From Chryseobacterium binzhouense (GTDB lineage: Bacteria; Bacteroidota; Bacteroidia; Flavobacteriales; Weeksellaceae): a stretch of DNA of 64,000 bases. Of this stretch, positions 7,001 to 51,751 are shown piece by piece. The DNA lies in the NCBI RefSeq assembly GCF_007474545.1, contig NZ_VKOG01000001.1, positions 62,001 to 126,000 on the forward strand. Reading direction: 5' to 3'. Within the stretch, counting starts at the first letter, position 1. Every line of letters starts with the position of its first letter. Under the pieces are notes generated by a model, which was not told the DNA's origin, ran no database searches, and saw only the letters and a program-made list of their open reading frames with translations. A program made the translations under genes and the position numbers.

Positions 7001-7074
7001 CTCCTCCTGCTGGGCTCGAACCAGCGACCCTCTGATTAACAGTCAGATGCTCTAACCAACTGAGCTAAGGAGGA
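7001..7074 (-). tRNA. tRNA-Asn (anticodon GTT)
   Basis: The minus strand folds as a 74-nt tRNA. The acceptor stem pairs TCCTCCT with AGGAGGA and has a G discriminator. The D arm contains AGCTCAGTTGGTTAGAGC, the anticodon arm is CTGACTGTTAATCAG with GTT, and the T arm is GCTGGTTCGAGCCCAGC. No CCA is encoded. The sequence is identical to the copy at 7258-7331. Confidence 0.97.
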
Positions 7075-7096
7075 ATTTCCTATTGTTTTAGTGGTG

Positions 7097-7104
7097 CAAA
7101 TATA
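7097..7104 (-). promoter_or_regulatory. -7 promoter box of the first tRNA-Asn gene
   Basis: TATATTTG on the minus strand, followed by GCACCACT, 22 nt before the mature 5' end. The same arrangement precedes the second copy. Confidence 0.6.
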
Positions 7105-7224
7105 AAATGAAAAACAATATCACGCAAATATTTTTTCTTCAAAATTAACGCAAAGCGTTTATGGTACTAACTTTCAGTAAATTAAATTTTAATATTTATT
7201 GTAATAATCTTTTACAAACAAAAT

Positions 7225-7256
7225 AAAAAAGACTCACATTGCTGTAAGTCTTTTTT
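7225..7256 (-). terminator. Intrinsic terminator of the second tRNA-Asn unit
   Basis: The minus strand reads AAAAAAGACTTACA, GCAA loop, TGTGAGTC, then TTTTTT. One mismatch in the stem. Confidence 0.8.
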
Positions 7257-7257
7257 G

Positions 7258-7331
7258 CTCCTCCTGCTGGGCTCGAACCAGCGACCCTCTGATTAACAGT
7301 CAGATGCTCTAACCAACTGAGCTAAGGAGGA
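7258..7331 (-). tRNA. tRNA-Asn (anticodon GTT), second copy
   Basis: Identical over 74 nt to the copy at 7001-7074, with the same GTT anticodon and G discriminator. The pair sits in tandem, 257 bp apart. Each has its own TATATTTG promoter box and hairpin terminator, so they are separate transcription units rather than one precursor. Confidence 0.97.
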
Positions 7332-13126: not shown

Positions 13127-13194
13127 TGTCAAAAATACGTTTTTAAGCCTGATTAAAAATAATATTGATTCTCCGTTATTAATCATACCGCTTT

Positions 13195-13292
13195 TTAACG
13201 CAAAGGATCGCTAAGATTCCTTTATATACTAACTGTTTTTAAGTTCGCAAAGGCGTTTCACTCAGCAAAGAACTCAAAGGTTTTTCAATTAT
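13195..13292. repeat. Degenerate intergenic repeat built on the motif CGCAAAG
   Basis: Between the tatD operon and the TetR gene: AACGCAAAG, CGCTAAG, CGCAAAG, GCAAAG and CAAAG occur within 90 bp. The same AACGCAAAG/CTTTGCGTT word occurs at about 7148 and, on both strands, inside the array at 50.1-50.6 kb, always outside genes. I see no promoter here with confidence. Confidence 0.5.
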
Positions 13293-49337: not shown

Positions 49338-50033
49338 ATGTTAGAAATCCTTTATCGTGACGAACATCTTATTGCCATTAACAAACCCAGCGGATTATTG
49401 GTTCACAAATCTTTTTATTCCGGAGAAGCAGATATGTATGCAATTCAGGAACTGAGAAAACAAATCGGACAAAAAGTGTATCCGGTTCATCGTTTAGACC
49501 GAAAAACTTCCGGTGTTTTATTGTTTACTCTAGATAAAGAAACGCTGAGAATGATGAGTACCCAATTTGAAAATAAAATGGTTGAAAAGAAATATATCGC
49601 TATTCTGCGAGGCTGGACGAAAGAGGAAGAAACGATTGATTATGATCTGGTTAACGAAAACGAAATTACACAAAATGCAATAACGTACTATCGCCGTTTG
49701 CAAACTTCGGAAATAGATTTACCCTTTTTAAAGCATCCAACTTCGAGATATTGTCTCGTTGAAGCGATTCCTGAGACAGGAAGATTTCATCAGCTGAGAA
49801 AACATTTTAAACATATACTGCATCCGATTTTAGGTTGCAGAAAACATGGTTGTAATAAACAGAATAAATTGTGGCTTCAGACTTTTGGAATTAACAAAAT
49901 GACTCTTCATGCCCATCAACTAATTTTTAATCATCCTGTTTCTAATGAAAGAATTACGGTAAAAGCTACTATTGATGATGATTTTAAAAGAGTGGGAGAT
50001 ATTTTAAATTTTGATTTAAATTCTTATTCTTAG
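49338..50033 (+). CDS. TruC-like RluA-family pseudouridine synthase
   Basis: A 231-residue enzyme converting uridine to pseudouridine in RNA. The catalytic motif HRLDRKTSGVLLF is at residues 51-63 with D54 as the nucleophile; the N-terminus LEILYRDEHLIAINKPSGLLVHKS and the later PETGRFHQLRKHFKH are RluA-family motifs. Compact size without an S4 domain fits TruC, which acts at U65 of tRNA, but the target is inferred. Followed by the tandem array at 50052-50590. Confidence 0.88.
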   Translation: MLEILYRDEHLIAINKPSGLLVHKSFYSGEADMYAIQELRKQIGQKVYPVHRLDRKTSGVLLFTLDKETLRMMSTQFENKMVEKKYIAILRGWTKEEETIDYDLVNENEITQNAITYYRRLQTSEIDLPFLKHPTSRYCLVEAIPETGRFHQLRKHFKHILHPILGCRKHGCNKQNKLWLQTFGINKMTLHAHQLIFNHPVSNERITVKATIDDDFKRVGDILNFDLNSYS

Positions 50034-50051
50034 TAATTTAAATTAATTTTA

Positions 50052-50089
50052 ATGCAAAAATTATATTTTATCTTGTATTATTTAAGACA
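50052..50089. repeat. Diverged tail of a repeat unit (start of the array)
   Basis: AATGCAAAAATT onward to TTATTTAAGACA aligns with the last ~38 bp of the full units (AACGCAAAAATC ... TTATTTTAAGCA) with several changes. It is an old partial copy at the left end. Confidence 0.6.
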
Positions 50090-50278
50090 GCAAAGGCAAA
50101 TAAATTTGCTACGCGAAGCTTGAAAATATGGCTTAATCAATCAGCTTGTTGATTAATACTTTGCTCCTTAAAATGTGAGCAATAATTGATAAAACTTTGC
50201 GTTTAATTTTATATTTTACTTTTCAATTCTGTAAGCATTTAACGCAAAAATCTATTTCCATGCTTTTTATTTTAAGCA
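50090..50278. repeat. Tandem repeat unit 1 (189 bp), with cloverleaf-like segment 50090-50164
   Basis: About 95% identical to unit 2. Paired arms: outer GCAAAG/CTTTGC (50090-50095 with 50159-50164); GCAAA-TAAA-TTTGC; AAGC/GCTT; and AATCAG-CTTG-TTGATT, where unit 2 has CTGATT, giving a G-U pair here. The second half contains CTTTGCGTT and AACGCAAAA as distant inverted arms. Confidence 0.85.
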
Positions 50279-50468
50279 GCAAAGGCAAATAAATTTGCTA
50301 TGCGAAGCTTGAAAACATGGCTTAATCAAATCAGCTTGCTGATTAATACTTTGCTCCTTAAAATGTGAGCAATAATTGATAAAGCTTTGCGTTTAATTTT
50401 ATATTTTACTTTTCAATTCTGTAATCATTTAACGCAAAGATCTATTTCAATGCTTTTTATTTTAAGCA
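50279..50468. repeat. Tandem repeat unit 2 (190 bp), with cloverleaf-like segment 50279-50354
   Basis: Best-paired copy. Outer stem GCAAAG/CTTTGC (50279-50284 with 50349-50354); hairpin GCAAA-TAAA-TTTGC; hairpin AAGC/GCTT; hairpin AATCAG-CTTG-CTGATT, whose CUUG tetraloop is closed by G-C. The segment is 76 nt with four stems around a junction. It lacks the conserved bases of a real tRNA. Confidence 0.85.
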
Positions 50469-50590
50469 GCAAAGGCAATAAATTGCTACGCGAAGCTTGA
50501 AAACATGGCTTAATCAAATCAACTTGTTGATTAATACTTTGCTCCTTAAAATATTAATTCAATAAAATACATCTTTGCGTTAAAAAATTA
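50469..50590. repeat. Tandem repeat unit 3 (truncated), with cloverleaf-like segment 50469-50542
   Basis: The first 83 bp (to about 50551) match units 1 and 2, then similarity fades except for a CTTTGCGTTAAAA word near 50573. In the first hairpin one A and its partner T are both missing (GCAA-TAAA-TTGC); in the last, AATCAA-CTTG-TTGATT carries an A-U pair where unit 2 has G-C. Both changes keep the stems. Confidence 0.8.
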
Positions 50591-50713: not shown

Positions 50714-51751
50714 ATGTACAAATCGCTCATTCGCCCGATTCTTTTCAAATTTGATCCCGAAGAAGTTCATCATTTTACTTTTTCGATGTTGAAAAATTTC
50801 GGTTTCCTTACCAAATTATTTTTTCCTAAACCTATTGAAGATAAACGTCTTGAAAGAGAAGTTTTTGGATTGAAATTTAAAAACCCAGTTGGTTTGGCTG
50901 CCGGTTTTGATAAGAATGCGGTTTTATTTAATGAACTGGGAGATTTAGGATTCGGTTTTGTAGAAATTGGTACGGTTACGCCAAAAGCTCAGGCTGGAAA
51001 TCCTAAAAAAAGATTGTTCCGACTGATTGAAGATGGCGGAATTATCAACAGAATGGGCTTCAACAATGATGGTCTTGAAGCGGCGATCGAAAAACTTAAA
51101 GGCAACAAAGGCAAAATTATTATCGGTGGAAACATCGGAAAAAACACGAACACAACACCTGAAAATTATACTCAGGATTATTTGGATTGTTTTGAAGGTC
51201 TTCATCCTTACGTAGATTATTTTGTACTGAATGTAAGCTGCCCGAATGTTGGAAGTCACGCAAAACTGGAAGATGTTGAGTATTTGAGAGAGCTGATTAC
51301 AGCTGTAAAAGAAATTAATCAAACCAAAGTAAATCCAAAACCAATTCTTCTAAAAATAGCTCCGGATCTGAATAATCAGCAATTGGACGAAATTATAGAA
51401 CTGATTGCAGAAACAAAGATCGACGGAATTGTGGTTTCTAATACTTCTGTGAACAGAGAAGGTCTGAAAACTTCACCGGAAGTTTTAGCAGAAATCGGAA
51501 ATGGTGGTTTGAGCGGAAAACCAATTCGTGAACGCAGCACAAAAATGATTAAATATCTTTCAAATAAAAGCAACAGAGCTTTCCCGATCATCGGAGTTGG
51601 TGGAATTCATTCTGCAAAAGATGCCATTGAAAAACTGGATGCGGGAGCAACTTTAGTTCAGTTGTACACAGGTTTTATTTACGAAGGTCCGCAATTGATT
51701 AACGATATTAATCAGGAAATTTTGACGAGAGCGGGTAGAATTTCGAGGTAA
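50714..51751 (+). CDS. pyrD: Dihydroorotate dehydrogenase, quinone-type (class 2)
   Basis: FMN enzyme oxidising dihydroorotate to orotate in pyrimidine synthesis, passing electrons to menaquinone. The 345-residue length and N-terminal extension ([23 protein letters not shown]) mark class 2, membrane-associated via that helix. [36 protein letters not shown] and [13 protein letters not shown] (catalytic Ser region) are family motifs; [13 protein letters not shown] and [15 protein letters not shown] bind FMN. Monocistronic, promoter box and terminator present. A menaquinone user in an organism with menD fits. Confidence 0.96.

Follow-up and report, generated by a model that had tools for sequence, protein, structure and literature searches.

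Three tandem elements of ~150 nt lie in the intergenic region between rlu, encoding an RNA pseudouridylate synthase, and pyrD, encoding a dihydroorotate dehydrogenase, in a 64,000-nucleotide stretch of the Chryseobacterium binzhouense genome, referred to here as the window (NCBI RefSeq assembly GCF_007474545.1, contig NZ_VKOG01000001.1, positions 62,001 to 126,000 of the forward strand). This analysis concerns these elements, their relatives in the genus, and the relation of both to genes of the GxxExxY nuclease family. A preliminary description, made from the sequence alone, had placed tandem ~190-bp repeats at this position, as two complete and two partial units. The repeats are present, with a period of 190 from 50081 to 50552 in Tandem Repeats Finder and a 150-nt stretch that recurs at 97% with a spacing of 190 nt. 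The unit count had to be revised, as there are three elements, separated from their neighbors by 37 nt, of which the first has a worn 5' end that reads ATGCAAAA. Otherwise, the elements span AACGCAAA to CTTTGCGTT.

Cloverleaf elements between rlu and pyrD

The outer stem of each element is formed by AACGCAAAG/CTTTGCGTT, and an inner stem, TTTTAAG..GCAAAG/CTTTGC..CTTAAAA, encloses three hairpins. From 5' to 3', the element consists of AACGCAAA(G), ~22 nt, TTTTAAGnnGCAAAG, hairpin 1 (GCAAATAAATTTGC), hairpin 2 (AAGC..GCTT), hairpin 3 (AATCAGCTTGCTGATT), CTTTGCnnCTTAAAA, ~25 nt and CTTTGCGTT. None of the window units contains an open reading frame (ORF) in its loop. The AACGCAAAG word occurs 6 times in the window, compared with 0.59 occurrences expected, and none of 100 shuffles reached 6. 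The cores of 74–76 nt that had been described were found at these lengths (Table 1). Also seen in the sequence were the A/T pair missing from hairpin 1 of unit 3 and the changing pair that closes the loop of hairpin 3, which is G-U in unit 1, G-C in unit 2 and A-U in unit 3. When folded as RNA, unit 2 formed a nested cloverleaf of -41.3 kcal/mol (z -2.6). The z values were -2.8 for its reverse strand, -1.9 with DNA parameters, and -3.3 and -4.7 for two further family members. The nested cloverleaf was also obtained for unit 3; unit 1 alone does not fold in this way.

BLAST searches with one unit identified 14 places in the C. binzhouense genome, including arrays at C1:298 kb, C11:335 kb, C11:253 kb, and C10:402 kb. 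A covariance model, R1, was built from 11 copies of this genome with the C10 copies left out, and it recovered the four C10 copies at 65.7–80.6 bits. R1 matched 107 of 119 Chryseobacterium genomes at E ≤ 0.001 (up to 26 candidates scored per genome), as well as 33 of 148 genomes, in 4 of 33 genera, of the family (up to 20 candidates scored per genome). An exact-pattern scan of named genomes returned 40 stretches, of which 38 were titled Chryseobacterium and the rest belonged to Epilithonimonas lactis and a Weeksellaceae metagenome-assembled genome. A phage, plasmid or viral origin was rejected on the basis of searches that gave no match at E ≤ 1e-5 in phage and plasmid collections and no exact pattern match in viral contigs. 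Some arrays have features of their own. For instance, three arrays of the C. binzhouense genome (L004, L005, and L007) end in nearly the same extra stretch, CTAAATCGCTAATGCGACAAAACTT; paralogous genes starting MKKLYSGAFLVC adjoin L004 and L005, and L007 has the same upstream flank. In C. kimseyorum (L113:6001-6820, which includes a run of N) and at L068:878-1694, left halves of the element are repeated in tandem with a ~100-bp period and closed by one right half.

Pairing was assessed in an alignment of 71 copies fitted to the covariance model and in one of 20 copies, aligned without structure, from a single orthologous position that precedes GxxExxY and glycosyl hydrolase 2 genes (the GH2-site; 20 of 20 loci). 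The shuffles used for both take no account of relatedness among the copies. Among the 71 copies, 93.2% of cells were paired (outer stem, 93.9%), cells changed on both sides numbered 50 vs. 19.4 in shuffles, and the covariation score was 0.098 vs. 0.069, a value reached by 0 of 500 shuffles. Double changes occurred in 8 pairs vs. 6.9 in shuffles, which was not unusual. For the GH2-site, RNAalifold alone predicted 15 pairs, covering the outer stem and, in part, hairpins 1 and 3, and 5 of these pairs had double changes. In a fuller structure, with hairpin 2 and the inner stem drawn in by hand, 90.5% of cells were paired (outer stem, 99.4%), 11 pairs had double changes vs. 7.0 in shuffles (6 of 500 reached 11), and the covariation score was 0.179 vs. 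0.123 (0 of 500). One pair of the GCAAAG stem was broken in 12 of the 20 copies. The cloverleaf pairing thus covaries, even when copies of a single orthologous site are aligned with no reference to structure; the covariation that had been proposed from three copies, on which alone it would be anecdotal, holds on both of the larger sets.

The borders of the elements are sharp, with short inverted termini (TTTTTNACGCAAAG..CTTTGCGTNAAAAA), and the copies are dispersed in both orientations. The surrounding context is TTTTTN on the left and NAAAAA on the right, with T at -2 in 51 of 55 loci and A at +3 in 55 of 55. No target-site duplication was seen at these 55 loci, where direct repeats at the borders averaged 3.56 nt for own flanks and 3.69 nt for cross-pairs.

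The rlu-pyrD site was also read by eye in 22 relatives of the same genus. Elements of the window type were present in 4 (L022, L023, L024, and L026, the first three inverted), and those of a sister family, family B, were present in whole or in part in 5 (L027, L028, L031, L033, and L038). In two relatives (L035 and L029), one or both of the outer words accompanied a different palindrome, and 11 relatives had neither family. Units 1 and 2 of the window were closest to rlu-pyrD copies of other species (77–78%), and the nearest copy to unit 3 outside the window array was the rlu-pyrD copy of genome G073 (82% identity). Among 15 rlu-pyrD rows compared, the nearest copy was an orthologue in 10 and came from another locus in 5. 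We take the window array to descend from an element probably long resident at rlu-pyrD.

Table 1. Elements, spacers, and adjoining genes in the window; R1 scores are given where available.
Feature	Coordinates	Strand	Remarks
rlu, RNA pseudouridylate synthase (PF00849), upstream gene	49338..50033	+	stop codon ~18 nt 5' of element 1
Element 1 (worn 5' end), outer stem to outer stem	50051..50203	+	R1 135.7 bits, copy included in model
Element 1 cloverleaf core	50090-50164		75 nt
Spacer 1	50204..50240	.	37 nt, almost identical to spacer 2
Element 2	50241..50393	+	R1 147.4 bits, copy included in model
Element 2 cloverleaf core	50279-50354		76 nt
Spacer 2	50394..50430	.	37 nt
Element 3	50431..50581	+	R1 147.6 bits, copy included in model
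Element 3 cloverleaf core	50469-50542		74 nt
pyrD, dihydroorotate dehydrogenase (PF01180), downstream gene	50714..51751	+	start ~132 nt 3' of element 3
Worn copy, apparently of sister family B (AACGCAAAG ... TTCGCAAAGGCGTTTCACTCAGCAAAG; CGCAAAGGCGTTTCACTCAGCAAAG)	13192..13282	+	by eye, unscored

Elsewhere in the window, two tRNA genes with an equal Rfam score of 70.6 bits lie ~180 nt apart on the minus strand at 7001-7331, with one lone AACGCAAAG between them.

GxxExxY genes and gene-bearing elements

The C10 array of C. binzhouense is directly upstream of a GxxExxY gene (TIGR04256; PF13366, PDDEXK_3). GxxExxY belongs to the PD-(D/E)XK family and has a predicted fold similar to those of Cas4 and Hjc. 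Its matches ranged from 1 to 7 per genome in 12 chosen genomes and, with fragments counted, from 1 to 9 in 38 of 40 drawn genomes of the genus. At 30 loci, the complementarity between the two flanks of the same gene averaged 27.8, compared with 14.9 for cross-paired flanks; 17 of the 30 exceeded the 95th percentile of the cross-pairs and 9 exceeded the 99th. Control flanks of pyrD had a mean of 14.0 and a maximum of 23. Given that own flanks are more complementary than cross-paired ones, many GxxExxY genes sit between inverted arms. The words of these arms vary by locus, as CACAAAG/CACAAAA or CAGATT replaces CGCAAAG at L153, L154, L149, L170, and others. Cloverleafs matched by R1 were upstream of GxxExxY at 22 of 45 scanned loci, which included 15 of 25 loci newly drawn from the 40 genomes. 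They represent two places, the GH2-site (20 of 20) and that of L224 and L225.

A locus adjacent to an ABC-transporter gene (PF00005 downstream, a permease-like gene upstream) was read in 30 cases out of 60 genomes with a match. In L157 and L226, the left half consists of CGCAAAGGCGCAAAG, 20 nt, TTTTAAGACGCAAGG and a hairpin, followed by GxxExxY, and the right half consists of a hairpin, CCTTGCGTCTTAAAA, 17 nt and CTTTGCGCCTTTGCG. This is the architecture of the window elements with the GxxExxY gene where hairpin 2 would stand. At the same place in L225 and L233, the same left arm is closed into a gene-less cloverleaf, to which R1 assigned 41 bits (E 1.3e-6), and this is followed by the gene and a second right arm. 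Neither gene nor cloverleaf was found in 13 of the 30 loci, and 3 had the gene and arms only, including L228, which is internally deleted, and L229, whose frame is broken. The gene together with at least one cloverleaf matched by R1 at E ≤ 0.1 was present in 11, with E of 0.0024 or less in nine and of 0.0056 (L244) and 0.034 (L238) in the other two; L238 and L239 have split genes. Of the remaining loci, L252 has the gene and a gene-less element that was seen by alignment and fold without an R1 match, L253 has a cloverleaf-like stretch and a truncated gene, and the layout of L234 is ambiguous. Both arms of L226, which bears the gene, align with the short element of L252. We take the cloverleaf and the gene-bearing element to be two forms of one thing, of which this locus gives the clearest sign.

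Arms of the short elements are common to GxxExxY elements at other loci as well. The family B cloverleafs at rlu-pyrD of genomes G023 and G020 (L033 and L038) match the arms of a GxxExxY element at another locus in G018 and G073 (L164 and L165), with z values of 24 and 20 (60 dinucleotide shuffles). For family A, represented by every fourth of the 71 copies, z was 3.9–6.4 with L157, L168, L225, and L165 and at most 2.1 with the other nine of 13 hand-chosen GxxExxY loci. R1 sees family B weakly, at 26.7–27.6 bits (E 0.006–0.009).

Selfish DNA, RNA, and other explanations

The preliminary description had regarded the repeats as a structured non-coding element or small repeat family. The small family stood, with a covarying, cloverleaf-like fold and members in other genomes of the genus; the part that found no support is action as a non-coding RNA. 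As arms of the same type enclose a nuclease gene elsewhere, the interpretation shifts toward a selfish DNA element. We suggest, with a probability of about 0.6, that the window repeats are gene-less members, similar to miniature inverted-repeat transposable elements (MITEs), of a group of hairpin-armed selfish elements whose full form carries GxxExxY. This suggestion builds on what was observed: a family with its fold and covariation, its presence across the genus, the ABC-transporter locus with the same arms around the gene in some species and around a cloverleaf in others, arrays of the short form, and opposite orientations at the same site. The full form would begin with an outer arm, an AT-rich spacer, an inner arm and hairpin 1, continue with the small GxxExxY gene, and end with hairpin 3, an inner arm, a spacer and an outer arm. 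Where the gene stands in the full form, the short form would have a short hairpin or stretch, so that the arms close into a cloverleaf, i.e., a multi-way junction with hairpin arms. The element would work at the DNA level. Judging from its predicted fold, which is like that of Cas4 and Holliday-junction resolvases, GxxExxY may recognize or cut the junction once it is extruded, both in cis and in trans, and may thereby help copies to spread or to be retained; the mobilization of short elements by GxxExxY in trans is putative. Tandem arrays would form locally, via slippage or unequal recombination between units.

Several observations weigh against this suggestion. Movement was not seen: the borders lack target-site duplications, the window copies look inherited at rlu-pyrD, and no recent jump was found. 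Moreover, the presence of the element does not track that of the gene, as G004, G010, and G047 have a GxxExxY gene and no R1 match and G019 shows the reverse.

A structured RNA element, such as a stabilizer in a 3' untranslated region, a processing site or a small RNA, which is selected for its shape and copied through the genome, would account for the covarying pairs, for positions conserved across many species and for the location of the element 4–31 nt from the rlu stop codon in 10 of 13 rlu-pyrD loci. We nevertheless consider it unlikely. A G-U pair on one strand is an A-C mismatch on the other, and the two were about equal in the 71 copies, with 28 G-U vs. 30 A-C among 1988 cells of the 28 core pairs (p 0.90; variable stem, outermost pair, and last pair of hairpin 1 omitted) and 72 vs. 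59 among all 36 pairs; selection for one RNA strand was therefore not seen. These near-equal departures from pairing give no indication of RNA over DNA. In addition, the whole element is flipped between species at the same site, both at rlu-pyrD (L022, L023, L024, and L057) and at the GH2-site (L144 and L151). Among 53 loci with both neighbors called, 40 gene pairs were co-directional, 7 divergent, and 6 convergent, according to a crude ORF finder and with many of the loci orthologous and hence not independent. Finally, no Rfam family reached its gathering score at 50051-50581. The nine sub-threshold matches were mostly to microRNA-type models, the best being MIR6140 (E 0.00037, with 32.8 bits where the gathering score is 140). 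This agrees with the earlier view that the core is tRNA-sized but lacks a tRNA consensus, and it was not taken to be a tRNA. Rfam also gave no rRNA match in the window.

Other ways of moving or multiplying the repeats were weighed. A conventional MITE, with AACGCAAAG ends recognized by a DDE transposase that mobilizes it, fits the termini, the sharp borders and the dispersal in both orientations. Such a mechanism is improbable in view of the missing target-site duplications; moreover, in a pattern scan of 141 locus sequences rather than whole genomes, terminus pairs separated by 260–4000 nt proved to be tandem arrays or neighbors by chance. Two odd terminus pairs considered as a DDE-type autonomous unit were rejected, as L086 and L119 proved to be neighboring words and a double element. 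Repetitive extragenic palindromes and bacterial interspersed mosaic elements (REP/BIME) moved by a REP-associated Y1 transposase (RAYT) are very unlikely here. Three Y1_Tnp genes are present in the C. binzhouense genome, and relatives have REP-like palindromes (CCTTGTCAAGG..) at rlu-pyrD; however, all three genes are flanked by other palindromes, and the 2-kb stretches inspected around them show no AACGCAAAG element. The flanking palindromes of these RAYT-like genes (L015-L017) include, for instance, CCGTAGGAATG at L017. A meaningless local tandem duplication, which the 97% recurrence at a 190-nt spacing might suggest, is hardly credible and was refuted by the searches that found the family dispersed over the genome and the genus. 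A type III toxin-antitoxin system, in which tandem RNA repeats stand beside a nuclease gene, was rejected, given that the orientation of the cloverleaf to GxxExxY varies by species and many copies are elsewhere. An attC site was also rejected, as its box bases vary among copies (AAC, TAC, CAC, and GAC).

A wider proposal is tentative, and we hold it to be doubtful: the GxxExxY hairpin elements could be a transposable-element class of their own, in which a Cas4/Hjc-like nuclease would cut an extruded DNA cloverleaf and the element would move or be copied without target-site duplication. The repeats, widespread in Chryseobacterium and some related genera, would then be the non-autonomous form, and the intervening sequences (IVSs) with S23p/IVP would be of the same kind with other cargo.

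Comparison with known systems

MITEs, such as the ERIC and RU repeats of enterobacteria, are non-coding, intergenic, multicopy repeats of 100–200 bp with inverted termini. The window family is likewise short, non-coding, intergenic, and multicopy with inverted termini. It differs in its covarying three-hairpin cloverleaf core, in that no target duplication was seen, and in its proposed partner, which is a PD-(D/E)XK nuclease rather than a DDE transposase. Similar to REP/BIME repeats with their RAYT, the window elements are palindromic, intergenic, and arranged in arrays; different from these, they are longer, have nested stems, and share a genome with Y1 genes flanked by other palindromes. The attC sites of integrons are folded sites in tandem arrays with conserved RYYYAAC/GTTRRRY boxes. 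The window elements are also folded, arranged in tandem and bounded by AAC/GTT ends; however, this box is not conserved in all copies, some of which have TAC, CAC or GAC, and there are no gene cassettes.

No description of the repeat family or of GxxExxY hairpin elements was found in the literature covered, which included few subscription journals, nor in the accessible parts of PMC5524665, PMC2817692, and PMC12306157. Similarly, the literature searched describes no role for GxxExxY/PDDEXK_3 in the parts available, where PMC8934634 mentions GxxExxY in passing.

As far as the accessible literature goes, the nearest published system is the IVS of rRNA genes with S23p. According to the available part of PMC4990558, the complementary ends of such an IVS pair into a stem whose loop holds a small ORF, heptamer repeats stand beside the ORF, and the ORF decays. 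Like the relatives of the window repeats that carry GxxExxY, the 23S rRNA IVS with S23p/IVP thus appears as a selfish hairpin element with a small ORF in a stem-closed loop, and the complementary termini of the window family also form a long stem (93.9 and 99.4% paired in the two alignments). The differences are that the window elements lie between rlu and pyrD and not in an rRNA gene, that the cargo of their relatives is GxxExxY and not S23p, and that the window copies have no ORF. Genes for four-helix-bundle or 23S rRNA IVP proteins (TIGR02436, PF05635) had 3–18 matches per genome in 12 genomes of the genus (loci L171-L200). They are often between co-directional genes, and many are flanked by complementary arms of ~7-nt words, e.g., TTAGGNN/NNCCTAA. 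The flanks exceeded the 95th percentile of cross-pairs at 14 of 30 loci, for instance at L189, whose neighbors are carA/carB-like genes (named by eye), and did not exceed it at the groES/groEL-like loci L177 and L185. These IVP loci look like IVS elements inside protein-coding operons. If GxxExxY genes sit in the loops of hairpin elements and the cloverleafs are their gene-less form, a single testable explanation, that of structure-guided selfish DNA, would cover both the orphan nuclease and the repeat family found across the genus, and the comparable layout of IVP genes within operons would link it to the question of how rRNA intervening sequences spread.
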